Shown piece by piece: positions 56,462 to 63,192 of a stretch of DNA of 64,000 nt (position 1 is the stretch's first letter; every line of letters begins with the position of its first letter). The DNA is from Deltaproteobacteria bacterium TMED58. Lineage in GTDB: Bacteria > Desulfobacterota_D > UBA1144. Both the position numbers and the translations under genes were made by a program. The DNA lies in NCBI GenBank assembly GCA_002167555.2, contig NHDL02000001.1:131005-195004 (forward strand). The letters are read 5' to 3'. Under the pieces are notes generated by a model. The model was not told the origin of the DNA. It did not search any database and saw only the letters and a list, made by a program, of their open reading frames with translations.

Positions 56462-57082
56462 CTAGTCACCATGCAATCCACACTCTCTTTTTTCTTCCAC
56501 CTTAGTGGGGTCAAAATAATCATACTCATTCTCTAGTGAGTATTCTTTTAAGTAATTATCTAAATCCTTGTCTGACGAGTAGTAAAAGGGACATGCTTTT
56601 ATCAAACCACTCTTGGTTTGACTAATAACATCGATAGTGTCTCTAAAGTTTGTTTGACCTTTCCTTAAGTTTGTTATCCAAAGATTAGGGCTTAATTCTT
56701 CCATCGCCCTTCGGAAGGGCTCGAGTTTAACTTGTTCTGTAAACTCTTTATGAATTGGATCATTAATACTTGGAATTCCACCCATAATAATATCTCTAAA
56801 TTCTTTTGTAAGCTTGGGGGCATATATATGAATATTAAGGTTAAATCTCTTTATAATCTTTTCCGCATATGTATAAGTAGCCTTGGTGTTGTAACCTGTG
56901 TCGCACCAAACTACTTTAATCTCAGGCATTACCGTGGAGCATAAATGAAGTATTGTGCATTCATAGGGTCTAAAGTTAGTAGTTAAAATAGGATTTTCAT
57001 ATTGATTTAGGGCCCACCTGACTATCTCATCTGGTCTTTTATTTTTTAACTTATTATTGAGATCAATAATATTTTCATTCAT
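56462..57082 (-). CDS. cysH: Phosphoadenylyl-sulfate reductase family protein (variant CysH)
   Basis: Reduces PAPS (or APS) to sulfite. 206 residues. Seen: an alpha-hydrolase/PP-loop fold, VVWCDTGYNTKATYTYAEKI, VKLEPFRRAMEEL, LWITNLRKGQTNFRDTIDVI (LRxxQTxxR block), KACPFYY and the C-terminal KVEEKRECGLH with the catalytic Cys. Two points are unusual: the N-terminal PP-loop region reads PILTTNFRPYECTILHL instead of the usual SFGAED-like loop, and the CC...CxxC cluster ligands of APS reductases are absent. Last gene of the cys operon, 4-bp ATGA overlap with the permease. Confidence 0.87.
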   Translation of the reverse strand: MNENIIDLNNKLKNKRPDEIVRWALNQYENPILTTNFRPYECTILHLCSTVMPEIKVVWCDTGYNTKATYTYAEKIIKRFNLNIHIYAPKLTKEFRDIIMGGIPSINDPIHKEFTEQVKLEPFRRAMEELSPNLWITNLRKGQTNFRDTIDVISQTKSGLIKACPFYYSSDKDLDNYLKEYSLENEYDYFDPTKVEEKRECGLHGD

Positions 57083-58062
57083 TTTGATACCTCAATTAGA
57101 ATATTGGTTATTAGAAAAGCTATAACGATGCATGCGATTGGAGCTAGAACCCAAAAAGATACTATTTGGAAAACACTTTTCTTTTTAAAGGTTTCTCTAA
57201 AACCAGAAGTTGAACAAGAAAAACCTATTATTCCCGAAGTTATTATTTCTGCCATAGATATAGGTATCCCGTAGAGAGATGCTATTGCAAGAAAAGCTCC
57301 ACCAGTAAAGTTTACAGATATTGCTCTTATAACAGAGAGTGATGTTATATTGGTTGCAATATTTTCAATAATCCTTCCACCAAAGATTAACGCTCCAAAT
57401 GCCATAAAAAAACCTGAAATAAGTGCGGCATCATTTGCAGTAATTAGGTTAAGTCCCACAATTGGCGCTGCAGCATTAGCAGCGTTATTCGCACCTGCAA
57501 AAAGAGCTAGAAAGCATGCGGAGGAAATCAATAGGAATTTTAAAGTAGAGCTAATTTTTTGTGTTCTTCTTCCATCTAGACTAATTAACTTATCAATTAA
57601 TTCAAAATAAATGTATTTACCTATTAGATAATTTAGTAACCAAATGGCGATAGGTGTAGCTATCCACCAAGCCACAATTTCAATCATTTTTTCTATATTT
57701 AGGGTATTGAATCCTAGTCCTATACCAAATATTGTGCAAACAACTATATGAGTTGTAGCTATTGGGATTTTAAATTTATTCGCCGCTAAGATTGATAAAA
57801 TTGGAATTATCAAAATCAAATAAATGAAATAGTAATTTAATTTTATAAATTCTATGCTTAATAATCCTCTTCCAACTGTTGCAACAACATCTTCGCCAAA
57901 TAGTGAGGCTCCCATGAAAACAAATATAAAAGCTAAAGAAACGGTTCCAAGTTTTGACATTATTTTAGCGCCAAACACCGTAGACATTGAAGAGGCTGCA
58001 TTATTTGCTCCAACATTGAAGGCTAGTACCAAGCTCAATATTGAGATTATGAAAACTTCCAT
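57079..58062 (-). CDS. PiT-family permease, probably sulfate (CysP-type)
   Basis: An inner-membrane transporter of the inorganic phosphate transporter family, 327 residues with about ten helices. The duplicated family signature is present as LAFNVGANNAASSMSTVFGA near the N-terminus and LFAGANNAANAAAPIVGL in the second half. Position between cysN and cysH makes sulfate the likely substrate, as for B. subtilis CysP; phosphate is the alternative. Start ATG shares a base with the cysN stop (TAATG). Confidence 0.88.
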   Translation of the reverse strand: MEVFIISILSLVLAFNVGANNAASSMSTVFGAKIMSKLGTVSLAFIFVFMGASLFGEDVVATVGRGLLSIEFIKLNYYFIYLILIIPILSILAANKFKIPIATTHIVVCTIFGIGLGFNTLNIEKMIEIVAWWIATPIAIWLLNYLIGKYIYFELIDKLISLDGRRTQKISSTLKFLLISSACFLALFAGANNAANAAAPIVGLNLITANDAALISGFFMAFGALIFGGRIIENIATNITSLSVIRAISVNFTGGAFLAIASLYGIPISMAEIITSGIIGFSCSTSGFRETFKKKSVFQIVSFWVLAPIACIVIAFLITNILIEVSK

Positions 58063-59315
58063 TAATTAATGATTCCTGCAGCAACTGTATTATTTGAATC
58101 AGTATCAATAATTATGAATGAGCCTAATACTTTGTTAGATTCATAAGTATCAAAAACAATATCATTTTGAACTTTTATTATCACATTACCAATATCGTTC
58201 ATTTTAATTGAATCCTCTGACTGTATTTTTTCAAGCGATTCAATATTAATTTTATCCACAACTTCTTTAATTAAGATTTTTGAAATTTTATTACTATGTT
58301 TTATAAGATATTTTTTGTTAGGGTCAAGTTCTTCGTCGCTCATCCAGCATATTTGAGCCGAAATTGTACTATCTATCCTAGGGTTATAATTTAATGATGT
58401 AACCGTATCTCCTCTTGAGATTTGAAGCTCATCTTTTATCAATAATGTTCCTGATTGATTTTTGGTTATTTTATTTGTATTTGAGCCTGATACTATAATA
58501 TTTTTTATTTCAGATTCTTTCTTACCTGGAAGAATACGAATTTTATCTCCAATTTTAAATTCTCCAGAAGCTGTCATTCCCATGTAACCACGAAAATCAT
58601 TAATTTCGTCATTATCAACTCTAGATACCAATTGAACAGGGAATGATGAATGACTTGATTCATCATTAGAATGTACAACAGTGTTTTCTAGCATACTTAA
58701 TAATGTTTCCCCTTTATACCAAGGTAAATTATCCCTTCTTTTGACAATCATATCTCCATGGAGCGCAGAAATTGGAATAAATTTTATGGATTTTATAGAT
58801 AATTTTTTTGCAATTTGATTAAATTCATTTTTGATTGAAAAAAATTTTTTTTCACTATATTCAATAAGATCCATTTTATTTACAGCAACAATTATATCTT
58901 TGATACCCAGCAAATAGCTTATATATAAATGCCTTCTAGATTGTTCTAATACACCTTTTCTAGAATCAATTAATATTATAGCTAGATTTGAATTGCTAGC
59001 ACCAGTGAACATATTTCTAGTGTATTCTTCATGTCCAGGAGTATCGGCTATTATGAATTTTCTTTTTGTAGTAGAGAAGTATCTGTAAGCTACATCAATC
59101 GTAATCCCTTGCTCTCTTTCATCTTTTAAACCATCGGTTAGATGAGCAAGATCAATATTTTTTTGATTTTTCAATTTCGAGTCATTTTCTAATGCTTCAA
59201 GTTGATCTGAAAATATTCCTTTCGAATCATAAAGTAACCTACCTATTAAAGTTGATTTTCCATCATCTACACTTCCAGCTGTAGCAAATCTAAGTATTCC
59301 AATTGAATCTTTCAA
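58062..59315 (-). CDS. cysN: Sulfate adenylyltransferase subunit 1 (GTPase)
   Basis: GTPase that drives the CysD-catalysed activation of sulfate to APS. Elongation-factor-like motifs: G1 GSVDDGKSTLIG, G2/switch region REQGITIDVAYRYF, G3 DTPGHEEYT, G4 VNKMDL, G5 ISAL. The C-terminus has beta-barrel domains but no fused APS kinase (CysC) domain. The start is probably TTG 59315, one base after the cysD stop, giving 417 residues. The longer frame from 59363 would overlap cysD by 47 bp and add a basic, non-homologous leader. Confidence 0.93.
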   Translation of the reverse strand: MKDSIGILRFATAGSVDDGKSTLIGRLLYDSKGIFSDQLEALENDSKLKNQKNIDLAHLTDGLKDEREQGITIDVAYRYFSTTKRKFIIADTPGHEEYTRNMFTGASNSNLAIILIDSRKGVLEQSRRHLYISYLLGIKDIIVAVNKMDLIEYSEKKFFSIKNEFNQIAKKLSIKSIKFIPISALHGDMIVKRRDNLPWYKGETLLSMLENTVVHSNDESSHSSFPVQLVSRVDNDEINDFRGYMGMTASGEFKIGDKIRILPGKKESEIKNIIVSGSNTNKITKNQSGTLLIKDELQISRGDTVTSLNYNPRIDSTISAQICWMSDEELDPNKKYLIKHSNKISKILIKEVVDKINIESLEKIQSEDSIKMNDIGNVIIKVQNDIVFDTYESNKVLGSFIIIDTDSNNTVAAGIIN

Positions 59316-59316
59316 T

Positions 59317-60201
59317 TTAAAAATAACCTTCCTTTTTTTTATCTTCCATAGAATTTGAACCATGATCTATAATTCTTGTCTCTCTTTCACTTCTCTTTGC
59401 TCTGATTGTCTCTTCTATTATCATGTCAATATTAGTTGCATTAGACTTTACGGCGCCTGTACATGGCATACAGCCAAGTGTTCTAAATCTCGAGTTGACC
59501 TCTGTTAAATCAGAATTTTTATTTTCTTCACTAGGTATTAAATTTTTACCTTTTAATACCATCTTTCTTTTTTTTGAGAAATATAATGGAGTAATTTTTA
59601 TTTTTTCATGTTTAATGTAATTCCAAATATCAGATTCTGTCCAACTCGATAAAGGAAAAATTCTTACCGATTCGTTTTCATCTATTTCTGCATTGAAAAT
59701 ATTCCATAATTCAGGTTTTTGAGACTTAGGATTCCATTGTCCAAAAGAATCTCTAAAAGAAAATACTCTTTCTTTTGCTCTTGATTTTTCTTCATCCCTT
59801 CTGGCTCCACCTATAGCAGCATTGAAATTATACTTACTGAGTGCATTCAATAGAGCCTGAGTTTTTAGAGCACCACAACACTTCGCTATTCCGTTTTTTG
59901 CTGGATGAAAACCTTTTTTAATAGCTTCTTCATTACGATGAACAATGAGCTTTGCTCCGATTTCTTTAGTAAACGAGTCTCGGAATTCATACATCTCTCT
60001 AAACTTGTACCCCGTATCTACATGTAGAAGAGGAAACGGTATTCTAGATGGATAAAAAGCTTTTCTAGCCAAATGGAGCATAACACTAGAGTCTTTTCCC
60101 ACAGAATAAAGCATCACAGGGTTAGTAAATTCAGCTACTACCTCTCTTAATATAAATATTGCCTCACTTTCTAGTTCTTTTAGATAGGAATTCGTACTCA
60201 T
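59317..60201 (-). CDS. cysD: Sulfate adenylyltransferase subunit 2
   Basis: Catalytic adenylyltransferase that makes APS from sulfate and ATP with CysN. PP-loop is MLYSVGKDSSVMLHLA (residues ~30-45). Other blocks: FPLLHVDTGYKFREMYEFRD, CCGALKTQAL, GARRDEEKSRAKERVFSFRD, FPLSSWTESDIWNYI and RTLGCMPCTGAV. Length of 294 residues is typical. Start ATG lies against the cysI stop (TAAATG). Confidence 0.96.
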   Translation of the reverse strand: MSTNSYLKELESEAIFILREVVAEFTNPVMLYSVGKDSSVMLHLARKAFYPSRIPFPLLHVDTGYKFREMYEFRDSFTKEIGAKLIVHRNEEAIKKGFHPAKNGIAKCCGALKTQALLNALSKYNFNAAIGGARRDEEKSRAKERVFSFRDSFGQWNPKSQKPELWNIFNAEIDENESVRIFPLSSWTESDIWNYIKHEKIKITPLYFSKKRKMVLKGKNLIPSEENKNSDLTEVNSRFRTLGCMPCTGAVKSNATNIDMIIEETIRAKRSERETRIIDHGSNSMEDKKKEGYF

Positions 60202-61893
60202 TTATATGACCTCTTTCCTTAAAAGTTCAAAATCAGTTCTATTGCAAAAATCTCCAAAAGGCTCTTCCTCTGCATTTTTATTTTTTTTCCAATAATTAAC
60301 TAATTTTGAAATTTTATATGCAAGCTCGCTATCATCTACGAGTTCCATGAACAACTTGTTCAATCGAGTTCCGTAAAAATCTCCACCTAAATATATATTA
60401 TATTTTTTTGCTGTGGCACCAATTAAACCTACCTCTGATACAGGTGGTCTTGAACAAGAATTAGGGCAACCACTCATTCTAATTTTTATTTTTTCGTCCC
60501 CTAGTCCCATATGTTCTAGCTCATCTATAAGAGAAGGTAAGAATCTTTCAGCTTCGGCTACGGCTAAACTACACGTAGGAAGTGCAGGGCATGCCATCGA
60601 CGCTAACCTCAAATTAGAATATCTTTCATTAGTATCAATATTATGCTCTGCTAACATTTCCTTGATACCCTCAACATTTTGTTTATCAATATTTACAAGA
60701 ATTAAGTCCTGAGTAGCTGTTAATCTTGTCTCCACATTGTATTTCTTTATTATTTTTGCCAAGCCTGATTTTAACTTCACAGAACCTTTGTCTTTAATTC
60801 TTCCATTCTCAACAAAGATTCCACAATAAAACTTCCCTGTTTGTTTTTGTTTATGCCAACCGTAGTAATTATCAATTTTCGTTAAAGACTTTTTTATGTA
60901 TTCATTAAGCTTAAATCCAATTCTTAGTTCAAGTTCTGCTCGAAACTTATTTACTCCCCAATTTTCTAGTAAATATTTCATTCTAGCTTGCTTTCTATCA
61001 GTTCTAACTCCATAATCTCTTTGAATACTAATTATTCCTTTGACTACATCAATAACTTGATCTTCTTCACACATACCTAATTCATCTGCTAACCTTGGAA
61101 AAGTTTGTGATTGTCGATGATGGCTTCCCAACCCACCACCAACTAAAATATTAAAGAATTTCTTATCACCATCTATAACAGGGAGTATTCCAATATCCTG
61201 TGTATAGATATCTATAGAATTATCCAGCTGATGTCCTACTCCTATCTTAAATTTCCTAGGCAAGTATGTTTTTTTATAGAGTGAATCTTCTTCAATTTTA
61301 TCCTTATTTATTTTAGTATTTATTTTTTCACCATCTACCCATATTTCATAATATCCTTTAGATTTTGCCAGAGTCTCTTTATCAATCTCTTTTGCAAGCG
61401 ATTGTGCATCATAACTAAAATCTTCTCTAATATCCGAAATTGGAGAGGCAACGGTGTTTCGTACAATATCACCACAAGCACCATAAGAAGTTATTAGATT
61501 TTTATTTAAGGTATTAACTAGTTCTTTTAAATTTTTTTTGCCAATTCCATGAAATTGAAAACATTCTCTAGTTGTTATTCTTAATGTTGGATTTGCCCAC
61601 TTACTTGTGATTTCATCCATTATTAGCCATTGTTCAGGTGTTATGTTTCCTCCACCTGGGTTTTTTGTTCTAATCATAAAACTATAATCCTTTTCTTGCT
61701 TGGCCTTCATCAAAGCCTTTCTTTTATCTCTATCATCTTGCTGGTAAATTCCATGGAATTTTAAGACTTGTTGATTATCACCTGTAAATTTTATGGACTC
61801 AGAATCCATTAGTTCTTCATGAATCGTACCTCTCAATCCATTACTTGATTCTTTAATTCCTTCATTTTTTACTAGCTTTAATTCTTTTTTCAT
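60202..61893 (-). CDS. cysI: Sulfite reductase hemoprotein (siroheme, [4Fe-4S])
   Basis: Reduces sulfite to sulfide with six electrons. 563 residues from ATG 61893, which has GGAGAGG just upstream; the frame opening at TTG 61905 would run through that site. Seen: an N-terminal half with VLKFHGIYQQDDRDKR, FMIRTKNPGGGNI, LRITTRECFQFHGI, ACGDIVRNTVASPIS and NILVGGGLGSHHRQ. The cluster/siroheme ligands are in MACPALPTCSLAVAEAERF and RMSGCPNSCSRP. Electron donor is undetermined, since no cysJ is nearby. Translation is preceded by the long structured leader described separately. Confidence 0.95.
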   Translation of the reverse strand: MKKELKLVKNEGIKESSNGLRGTIHEELMDSESIKFTGDNQQVLKFHGIYQQDDRDKRKALMKAKQEKDYSFMIRTKNPGGGNITPEQWLIMDEITSKWANPTLRITTRECFQFHGIGKKNLKELVNTLNKNLITSYGACGDIVRNTVASPISDIREDFSYDAQSLAKEIDKETLAKSKGYYEIWVDGEKINTKINKDKIEEDSLYKKTYLPRKFKIGVGHQLDNSIDIYTQDIGILPVIDGDKKFFNILVGGGLGSHHRQSQTFPRLADELGMCEEDQVIDVVKGIISIQRDYGVRTDRKQARMKYLLENWGVNKFRAELELRIGFKLNEYIKKSLTKIDNYYGWHKQKQTGKFYCGIFVENGRIKDKGSVKLKSGLAKIIKKYNVETRLTATQDLILVNIDKQNVEGIKEMLAEHNIDTNERYSNLRLASMACPALPTCSLAVAEAERFLPSLIDELEHMGLGDEKIKIRMSGCPNSCSRPPVSEVGLIGATAKKYNIYLGGDFYGTRLNKLFMELVDDSELAYKISKLVNYWKKNKNAEEEPFGDFCNRTDFELLRKEVI

Positions 61894-61928
61894 ATTCCTC
61901 TCCAAATTTTTTTTATTAAAATGCTTTG

Positions 61929-61995
61929 CTAATTTGATATGAATAAAACCATTCCTTAGAAATGAAGTACTTACTTGATTGAAATATCAAATTAG
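61929..61995 (-). promoter_or_regulatory. 12-bp inverted repeat in the cys leader
   Basis: Arms 61929-61940 and 61984-61995 are perfectly complementary (12 bp; on the - strand CTAATTTGATAT and ATATCAAATTAG). The 43-nt loop contains a smaller hairpin, CATTTC-TAA-GGAATG. It begins 13 nt after the stop of the Cys-rich leader ORF and ends 36 nt before the cysI ATG. AATTTG occurs in the upstream arm and again just before the cysI ribosome site (61908-61903), so the CAAATT arm has two mutually exclusive partners, as expected of an attenuator. No U-tract follows, so control would be on translation or mRNA processing. Confidence 0.55.
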
Positions 61996-62008: not shown

Positions 62009-62092
62009 TTAGTTACAACAACAAGAGCTTGATTGATTAATACAGCATAAATTTTTATCATTTAAGGATAAAAAGGTTTTGAAAATAAACAT
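62009..62092 (-). CDS. Cysteine-rich leader peptide of the cys operon (uORF)
   Basis: A 27-codon ORF on the - strand, ATG 62092-62090 to TAA 62011-62009, followed directly by a second TAA. A Shine-Dalgarno GGAG (62102-62099) lies 6 nt upstream. Residues 1-15 are ordinary (MFIFKTFLSLNDKNL), then come C16-C17 and C24-C25-C26 in SSSCCCN: five Cys codons in the last 12. It is upstream of cysI, the first gene of the sulfate assimilation operon. This is the form of an amino-acid-sensing attenuator peptide: low Cys-tRNA would stall ribosomes at the Cys run. Polycysteine leader ORFs are known in mycobacteria; this one is in a different gene context. Confidence 0.6.
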   Translation of the reverse strand: MFIFKTFLSLNDKNLCCINQSSSCCCN

Positions 62093-62115: not shown

Positions 62116-62195
62116 TAACTCTAAGAGGAAAGACAAACCAGATGTATGTCTTTGCTCTGTTTAGCAGTTATTTAAGGTCGCTGCAAGTAGAGTTA
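62116..62195 (-). promoter_or_regulatory. Structured 5' leader RNA of the cys operon (three-way junction)
   Basis: On the - strand, P1 is TAACTCTA (62195-62188) with TAGAGTTA (62123-62116), 8 bp. P2 is GCAG (62184-62181) with CTGC (62167-62164) and a 13-nt loop. P3 is AGAG-C-AAAGACA (62158-62147) with TGTCTTT-C-CTCT (62135-62124), 11 bp with one C-C mismatch. It starts about 9 nt from the predicted transcription start and ends 14 nt before the uORF ribosome site. It matches no riboswitch class I can recognise (no S-box or cobalamin-box consensus). A palindrome CAAATTAATTTG (62115-62104) follows. Could instead be read on the + strand toward trhO. Confidence 0.5.
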
Positions 62196-62210
62196 AATGA
62201 CGACGAATCA

Positions 62211-62240
62211 ATTATAGCACTATTTATTATTGAACATCAA
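62211..62240 (-). promoter_or_regulatory. Promoter of the cys operon (extended -10)
   Basis: On the - strand TGCTATAAT (62219-62211) is a perfect extended -10. TTGATG (62240-62235, 4 of 6 to consensus) is an 18-nt-spaced -35. Predicted start is near 62204, giving a leader of about 310 nt before cysI, exceptional for this compact window. Confidence 0.65.
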
Positions 62241-62262: not shown

Positions 62263-63192
62263 ATGATATATTATTTTTCTATGGATAATTCTAATTTTGA
62301 GATAATTAGTTTTTATAAGTTTATCAACTTAAAATTTACAAATAAATTAAAAGATGAGCTTTATGTAATTTGCAAGAAAAATTCTATTCTAGGAACAGTA
62401 ATTCTTTCAAAAGAGGGAGTAAATGGGATGTTGGCAGGCTCTAAAGATTCTATTGAATTGATAACTAGTTTTTTTATCAAACACGGTGTTTTGATTGATG
62501 ATTTTAAGTTTTCAAGCTCAGTAACTAAGCCTTTTCATAGGTTGAGAATAAAAATAAAAAAGGAAATTATTAGTCTCGGTCACCCCGAGCTATCTAATCC
62601 AAATGAACTGGTTGGGAAGTACGTTGAACCCGAGGATTGGAATAAATTAATTGAGGAAGAAAATGTTGTTCTAATTGATACTAGAAATAAGTATGAAACC
62701 TCTATTGGAACATTTAAAAATGCAATCGTACCACCTTTGAGAAATTTTAAAGAATTTCCTAACTTTATTAAAAAAAATGATCTTAATAAAAATTCTAAAA
62801 TCGCTATGTTCTGTACTGGTGGAATAAGATGTGAGAAAGCTAGCTCATATTTACTGAAGTCAGGTTTTAAGGAAGTCTTACATTTGCATGGAGGAATAAT
62901 AAAATATTTGGAAACAGTTCCCTCAGAAGACTCTAAGTGGGAAGGTGAATGTTTTGTCTTTGATAATAGAGTTTCGGTAGAACAAAATCTTAAACAAGGT
63001 ACCTACTTAAACTGTAATGGGTGTGGTGAACCTCTTAAAAAAGAAGAGGTTTTAAGCCCAAAATATAGAAAAGGAGTTTCATGTCCTAAATGTTATAATA
63101 GTTTGACAAAAAAGAAAATACAAAAATCATCAGAAAGACAAAAACAAATTGAATTATCAAAATTAAGGGGAGAGGTACATATAGGTGAGTAG
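62263..63192 (+). CDS. trhO: tRNA uridine(34) hydroxylase TrhO (YceA-type rhodanese protein)
   Basis: Oxygen-dependent hydroxylation of U34 in tRNA. Layout: an N-terminal acylphosphatase-like domain (FYKFINLKFTNKL, LSKEGVNGMLAGS), a rhodanese domain (~120-215) with LIDTRNKYETSIGTF and the active-site Cys in AMFCTGGIRCEKASSYLL, and a C-terminal CxxC zinc-like region (LNCNGCGEPLKKEE, CPKC). 309 residues from ATG 62263. ATG 62281 (MDNSNFEII) is an alternative, since neither has a good ribosome site. The GTG of the next gene overlaps its stop by 8 bp. Confidence 0.92.
   Translation: MIYYFSMDNSNFEIISFYKFINLKFTNKLKDELYVICKKNSILGTVILSKEGVNGMLAGSKDSIELITSFFIKHGVLIDDFKFSSSVTKPFHRLRIKIKKEIISLGHPELSNPNELVGKYVEPEDWNKLIEEENVVLIDTRNKYETSIGTFKNAIVPPLRNFKEFPNFIKKNDLNKNSKIAMFCTGGIRCEKASSYLLKSGFKEVLHLHGGIIKYLETVPSEDSKWEGECFVFDNRVSVEQNLKQGTYLNCNGCGEPLKKEEVLSPKYRKGVSCPKCYNSLTKKKIQKSSERQKQIELSKLRGEVHIGE

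Follow-up and report, generated by a model that had tools for sequence, protein, structure and literature searches.

What does a 27-codon ORF loaded with cysteine codons do in front of a sulfate assimilation operon? The ORF lies in the long leader of cysI in a 64,000-nucleotide stretch of DNA (the window) from Deltaproteobacteria bacterium TMED58, an uncultured marine bacterium with a genome of ~1.0 Mb. By analogy with trp/his attenuators and mycobacterial polycysteine ORFs, the initial annotation had proposed that it may sense Cys-tRNA supply. Here we describe the conservation of this ORF, a riboswitch that precedes it, and a reading, built as a whole on sequence evidence, in which the two act together. 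Unless stated otherwise, all features are on the minus strand of the window.

The leader ORF and its operon

Gene identification bears out the operon proposed to lie downstream of the leader. Thus, cysI (60202..61893; NF010029, 677 bits), encoding the assimilatory sulfite reductase hemoprotein, is preceded by its ribosome-binding site GGAGAGG (61897..61903) and followed by cysD, cysN, the gene for a PiT-family transporter and cysH (56462..60201). The promoter, described earlier as strong, reads TTGATG-18-TATAAT (62211..62240), which is a 10/12 match with a TG ahead of the -10 box; most other copies of the leader element have a -10-like sequence at the same spacing. At the cysI promoter region, a divergent gene on the plus strand (62263-63192) encodes a UPF0176/rhodanese protein, TrhO-like.

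The leader ORF (62092-62009) begins with ATG at 62092, reads MFIFKTFLSLNDKNLCCINQSSSCCCN and ends with TAA at 62011-62009, directly followed by a second TAA. Its GGAG ribosome-binding site (62102-62099) stands six nt before the ATG, and cysteines occupy codons 16-17 (62042..62047) and 24-26 (62015..62023), in full agreement with the initial annotation. GGAG or a near variant is found before the leader in almost every copy. With the promoter ~120 nt upstream and a Shine-Dalgarno site present, the ORF is not at the 5′ end of the transcript. The cysteine cluster is as rare as had been claimed: large ORFs of the window have a cysteine content of 1.12% of residues, and among the window's 384 small ATG ORFs (15-45 codons) this leader alone contains CCC or at least five cysteines in its last 12 residues. 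Naive chance estimates are ~3e-5 for CCC and ~1e-7 for five cysteines of 12.

The ORF persists in four other species of the genus and in one further genus, with its start codon, reading frame and Cys run preserved across all six species and the Cys codons retained while the flanking codons drift. Beyond cysI, two more sulfur operons carry Cys-run leaders. Five cysI and five sseA leaders align without gaps, and pairwise residue identity in these alignments is 102/110 in Cys columns versus 173/430 in other columns, and changed codons are synonymous or nonsynonymous in a ratio of 16:8 in Cys columns versus 40:257 elsewhere, these pairwise counts not being independent. Counted by column, invariance is seen at 9 of 11 Cys positions versus 7 of the other 42 (p 1e-4). 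The final three cysteines are never altered across the aligned leaders despite TGT/TGC exchange. Each leader has 4 to 12 cysteines at variable positions with a constant terminal run, a pattern that fits a codon counter. The leader ORF is therefore confirmed as real, and, because its Cys codons are conserved amid drift both in relatives and in other operons, a Cys-tRNA-sensing leader peptide is supported.

A SAM-II-like riboswitch ahead of the leader

Overlooked in the initial annotation, an aptamer (62140..62214) extends from the -10 box of the promoter to ~40 nt ahead of the leader ribosome site. It matches RF00521 with 31.9 bits (E 4e-4). All copies scored against this family reach 25.2-33.9 bits and stay under the gathering cut-off of 36 bits, and we therefore refer to the element as SAM-II-like. 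In the SAM-II fold, P1 is formed by 62204-62200 with 62181-62177, and a CUCU/AGAG pseudoknot by 62192-62189 with 62158-62155. The host genome has three further copies (25 to 33 bits), located before thrC, sseA (a rhodanese annotated as 3-mercaptopyruvate sulfurtransferase-like) and SBP56 (methanethiol oxidase family).

By its core pattern, the riboswitch is present in 14 of 14 genomes of the family. From 29 copies (14 thrC, 6 cysI, 6 sseA and 3 intact SBP56) we built a covariance model, R1, which recovers in 57 genomes of the phylum these 29 copies and one decayed copy, in this family only; R1 is too family-specific to bear on SAM-II elsewhere. A loose composite pattern run over 386 genomes gave mostly chance matches and was left unused.

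Among the 29 copies, the core AUUUAA..UUGCA..GCUAAA is invariant or more than 90% conserved. Two cysI leaders (L064 and L066, from genomes G002 and G003) have GCTAAG in place of GCTAAA, and ligand binding there may be weaker or altered. The expression platform (62116..62158) forms a hairpin, AGAG.AAAGACA/TGTCTTT.CTCT. Its CCUCUU (62128-62123) can base-pair with the ribosome site of the leader, and its almost invariant GAGUUA (62121-62116) could, judging from the alignment, pair with UAACUC of the aptamer. When the SAM-II fold, the platform hairpin and the CUCUU:AGGAG pairing are combined, 92.4% of cells are paired, with a covariation of 0.255 versus 0.179 when shuffled and at most 0.10 when slid. 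Most of the covariation comes from the platform hairpin and the outer P1 pairs; the pseudoknot is 96.6% paired and its changes are wobble only. An alternative fold, in which AGAG lengthens the hairpin via CUCU, is kept equally well in the 29 copies. The pseudoknot and the extended hairpin are mutually exclusive states. We infer that the ligand is SAM and that the SAM-bound state would free CUCUU for the leader site. The direction is predicted to be OFF by analogy with the usual direction of SAM-II (PMC6061858). By energy folding, the minimum-energy structures did not differ consistently at the ribosome sites between the SAM-bound and SAM-free states.

The distribution of the copies suggests how the arrangement arose. 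The 14 thrC copies come from all five genera, and there the thrC start codon lies ~100 nt past the aptamer core. Restricted to genera g1 and g5 are the copies before cysI (6), sseA (6) and SBP56 (3 intact). In all 15 intact non-thrC copies a Cys-run ORF occupies the position of the thrC start codon, as against none of the 14 thrC copies. These leader ORFs have 21-33 codons with the Cys run at the end, ranging from MIEEKNFIFLFIAAPCCCCCN to MIKTICDCSFCDCVFCLSSTCCCLSNSCCCNYK, and the enzyme start codon follows 56-130 nt past the leader stop. The thrC arrangement, in which the riboswitch acts directly on thrC, is the ancestral one; in two genera the riboswitch has spread to three sulfur operons. 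No Cys-run leader was found in the cysI, sseA and SBP56 upstream regions of the other genera, with the start of sseA in L119 left unplaced. In a fourth SBP56 copy (L077) the aptamer is without the GCUAAA part and the Cys run has decayed to CFCG, and neither riboswitch nor leader precedes SBP56 in G004 and G008.

Several further observations concern these loci. In G004, the hairpin adjoining the SBP56 ribosome site persists after loss of the riboswitch and leader ORF (L124). Genome G008 has two near-identical thrC loci with the riboswitch (L068 and L073, on contigs C14 and C20), reflecting either duplication or a strain mixture in the assembly. In genera g3 and g4, at loci that lack the RNA leader, several sulfur genes are preceded by GTTACTTTTTAGTAAC-like repeats (L009, L010 and L128-L133, upstream of cysI and SBP56). 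Such repeats may be the site of a protein regulator, and control may have moved from protein to RNA in g1 and g5.

The targets of the leader-bearing copies all concern reduced sulfur, namely sulfate assimilation, a sulfurtransferase with a SufU-like scaffold gene, and methanethiol oxidase. At one locus (L135:920-2437, G000:C6), the riboswitch-controlled thrC is directly followed by a gene for a 90-residue protein ending in GG that resembles a CysO/ThiS-like ubiquitin-type sulfur carrier. Given this neighbour, the 'threonine synthase' operon may itself serve sulfur amino acids.

A possible two-input mechanism and its alternatives

With a SAM-II-like riboswitch ahead of the leader, cysteine would be just one of two inputs. 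The initial Cys-tRNA proposal therefore stands in part: Cys conservation across relatives supports it, but not as the only signal. We consider it probable that the element has two inputs, SAM gating the initiation of leader translation and Cys-tRNA supply gating its elongation. When SAM is absent, AGAG would pair with the platform CUCU and leave the leader ribosome site open; when SAM is present, AGAG would enter the pseudoknot, and the freed CUCUU would cover that site and prevent the leader from starting. Under low SAM, the Cys-rich leader would then be translated, and scarce Cys-tRNA, as the putative second signal, would stall ribosomes at the terminal Cys run.

A segment inside the leader suggests how such a stall could feed back on initiation. 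Just ahead of the Cys run, CAAGCUCU (62024..62032) complements the leader's own GGAGUUUG (62102-62095). These pre-Cys bases (CAAACUC or variants) are complementary to GGAGUUUG in the other leaders as well, and in 13 of 15 leaders a scan of the ORF ranks them first as a partner for the leader ribosome site. Where one side differs, so does the other: GGAGUUUAAU goes with AUUAAACU in L055, CAGGAGUUU with AAACUCUUG in L064 and L066, and GGGAGU with GCUCCU in L062. Shuffling these 12 nt cheapens the computed opening of the leader site (Wilcoxon p 0.003, 15 leaders), in support of sequestration of that site. While stalled at the Cys run, a ribosome would mask the segment, and the leader would go on loading ribosomes, whereas after a ribosome has run off the segment would re-pair and close the leader.

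How a stall would reach cysI is the weakest step. The large inverted repeat noted earlier is present (61995-61984 with 61940-61929) as a long-range stem, CTAATTTGATAT/ATATCAAATTAG (61929..61995), between the leader stop and cysI. Tallied on hand-set columns, 78.8% of its cells are paired versus 21-41% when slid, and 26 of 500 shuffles attain its covariation score; in the cysI post-ORF region, RNAalifold gave nothing beyond weak local stems. In the sseA and SBP56 leaders, the last Cys codons lie in the 5′ arm of a stem, UUGUAACUA pairing with UAGUUAUAA past the stop, and a hairpin stands a few bases ahead of the main ribosome site. Taken together, the stems beyond the leader ORF have partial support. 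A search of the window's own cysI leader found no intrinsic terminator; transcription attenuation of the trp/his type, on which the initial analogy drew, is therefore not indicated. Nor could we demonstrate the proposed folding change relaying a stall to cysI. The leader apparently raised the opening energy of the main ribosome site, but no more than shuffled leaders did (p 0.64), and the idea that it hides this site was dropped for that reason. Candidate routes would instead be Rho, decay or ribosome occupancy. Ribosomes on the leader may hold the downstream message open or shield it, by blocking Rho-dependent termination, decay or formation of the post-ORF stem, and cysI would be on only with SAM and Cys both low, which is the most economical logic for sulfur genes.

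Four other explanations were weighed against this two-input reading. First, Cys codons could be the only sensor, with leader translation alone regulating the sulfur genes and the riboswitch surviving as a non-working relic of a duplicated thrC leader. Such a relic could have the sub-threshold Rfam scores and the altered GCUAAA of two cysI aptamers, and the aptamer tree, which clusters roughly by target gene, fits duplicated cassettes. It is nevertheless unlikely in view of the invariant aptamer core and covarying platform hairpin in 29 copies, and of L077, where the aptamer is broken and the Cys run has decayed too. Second, the nascent peptide might be the sensor, its Cys cluster binding metal, persulfide or an oxidant on the ribosome, as in copper-sensing uORFs, the signal then being arrest instead of tRNA supply. 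Cysteine is indeed the sole conserved residue type, and one target, SBP56, is from a family whose members can bind metal. We regard this as improbable as well: the Cys spacing is not fixed (CC...CCC, CCC...CCC, CCCCC, up to 12 Cys), every target feeds Cys sulfur, and no arrest motif comparable to the CruR RAPP (PMC9426467) is conserved among the leaders.

Third, the Cys run could be a side effect of conservation at the RNA level, UGUUGUUGUAAC being kept as an element of the post-ORF stem and the peptide being irrelevant. The pairing past the stop in sseA and SBP56 leaders agrees with this, but the cysI leaders keep the run without that stem, TGT/TGC swaps occur inside the run and at upstream Cys codons, and start, frame and ribosome site are retained though most codons differ, which together make the explanation very unlikely. 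Finally, a chance ORF, suggested by small size and nothing more, is already refuted by conservation at 15 loci in six species.

Since the riboswitch-leader pair recurs before three sulfur operons, methionine-side and cysteine-side signals may combine in one mRNA. More tentatively, and with less than even confidence, we propose that this is a natural RNA series gate, in which initiation on one leader ORF is set by a metabolite riboswitch and elongation by an amino-acid-specific codon run, with an internal anti-ribosome-site masked by stalling; it would read SAM and Cys and have spread as a cassette.

Comparison with known systems

The riboswitch and the Cys leader are each of a known kind; their combination is apparently undescribed. 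In the part of the literature covered, no combination of riboswitch and leader peptide was described for sulfate assimilation or cysteine, nor was there a matching description of a Dadabacteria riboswitch. As a rule, riboswitches and leader peptides for amino acids are handled as separate metabolic readouts; here they stand in series and were copied as a unit. If the two-input reading is true, cells of a streamlined marine lineage, in which such RNA control seems undescribed, would coordinate the methionine/SAM branch of sulfur metabolism with the cysteine branch purely in RNA. Some 30 natural variants, among them copies that are leaderless, decayed or lost, are available for testing this logic with simple reporters.

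With SAM-II/SAM-V (RF00521; PMC1273637, PMC6061858, PMC11508383), the aptamer shares the AUUUAAC...UUGCA...GCUAAA core, the short P1 and the predicted H-type pseudoknot geometry. It differs in its sub-cut-off score, its separate long platform hairpin, its Dadabacteria-like lineage, and in its putative control of a leader ORF, which applies to 15 of the 29 copies. CruR (PMC9426467), a copper-sensing uORF whose DUF2946 protein has CXXC and a RAPP arrest motif, likewise places a Cys-containing uORF ahead of controlled genes; neither a conserved CXXC nor a C-terminal RAPP was found in the leader peptides here. The uORFC-8-2 motif before cysS in Rhodobacterales, for which ribosome-mediated attenuation was proposed (PMC8632094), also has a uORF with tandem Cys codons, but it lacks a riboswitch and closes with an intrinsic terminator, whereas the present leader has no terminator and different target genes. 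A riboswitch governing a uORF is known from ppe2 of M. tuberculosis, in which a translational B12 riboswitch controls a small ORF needed by the main gene (PMC11260477). That uORF overlaps the gene (termination-reinitiation) and no regulatory codons are named in the discussion of it, whereas here a gap of 56-130 nt follows a Cys-loaded ORF.

The leader itself also resembles the Cys-run ORFs ahead of cysteine and sulfur operons in mycobacteria and other Actinobacteria (PMC1262725; Canestrari et al. 2020 via PMC9094748, PMC13236596). Both kinds are short, have Cys codons near the stop, precede sulfur operons and are without an intrinsic terminator. The mycobacterial ORFs tested are leaderless; the ORF described here, from an unrelated phylum, is preceded by a SAM-II-like riboswitch and then a Shine-Dalgarno site, and has an internal anti-ribosome-site just ahead of its Cys run.
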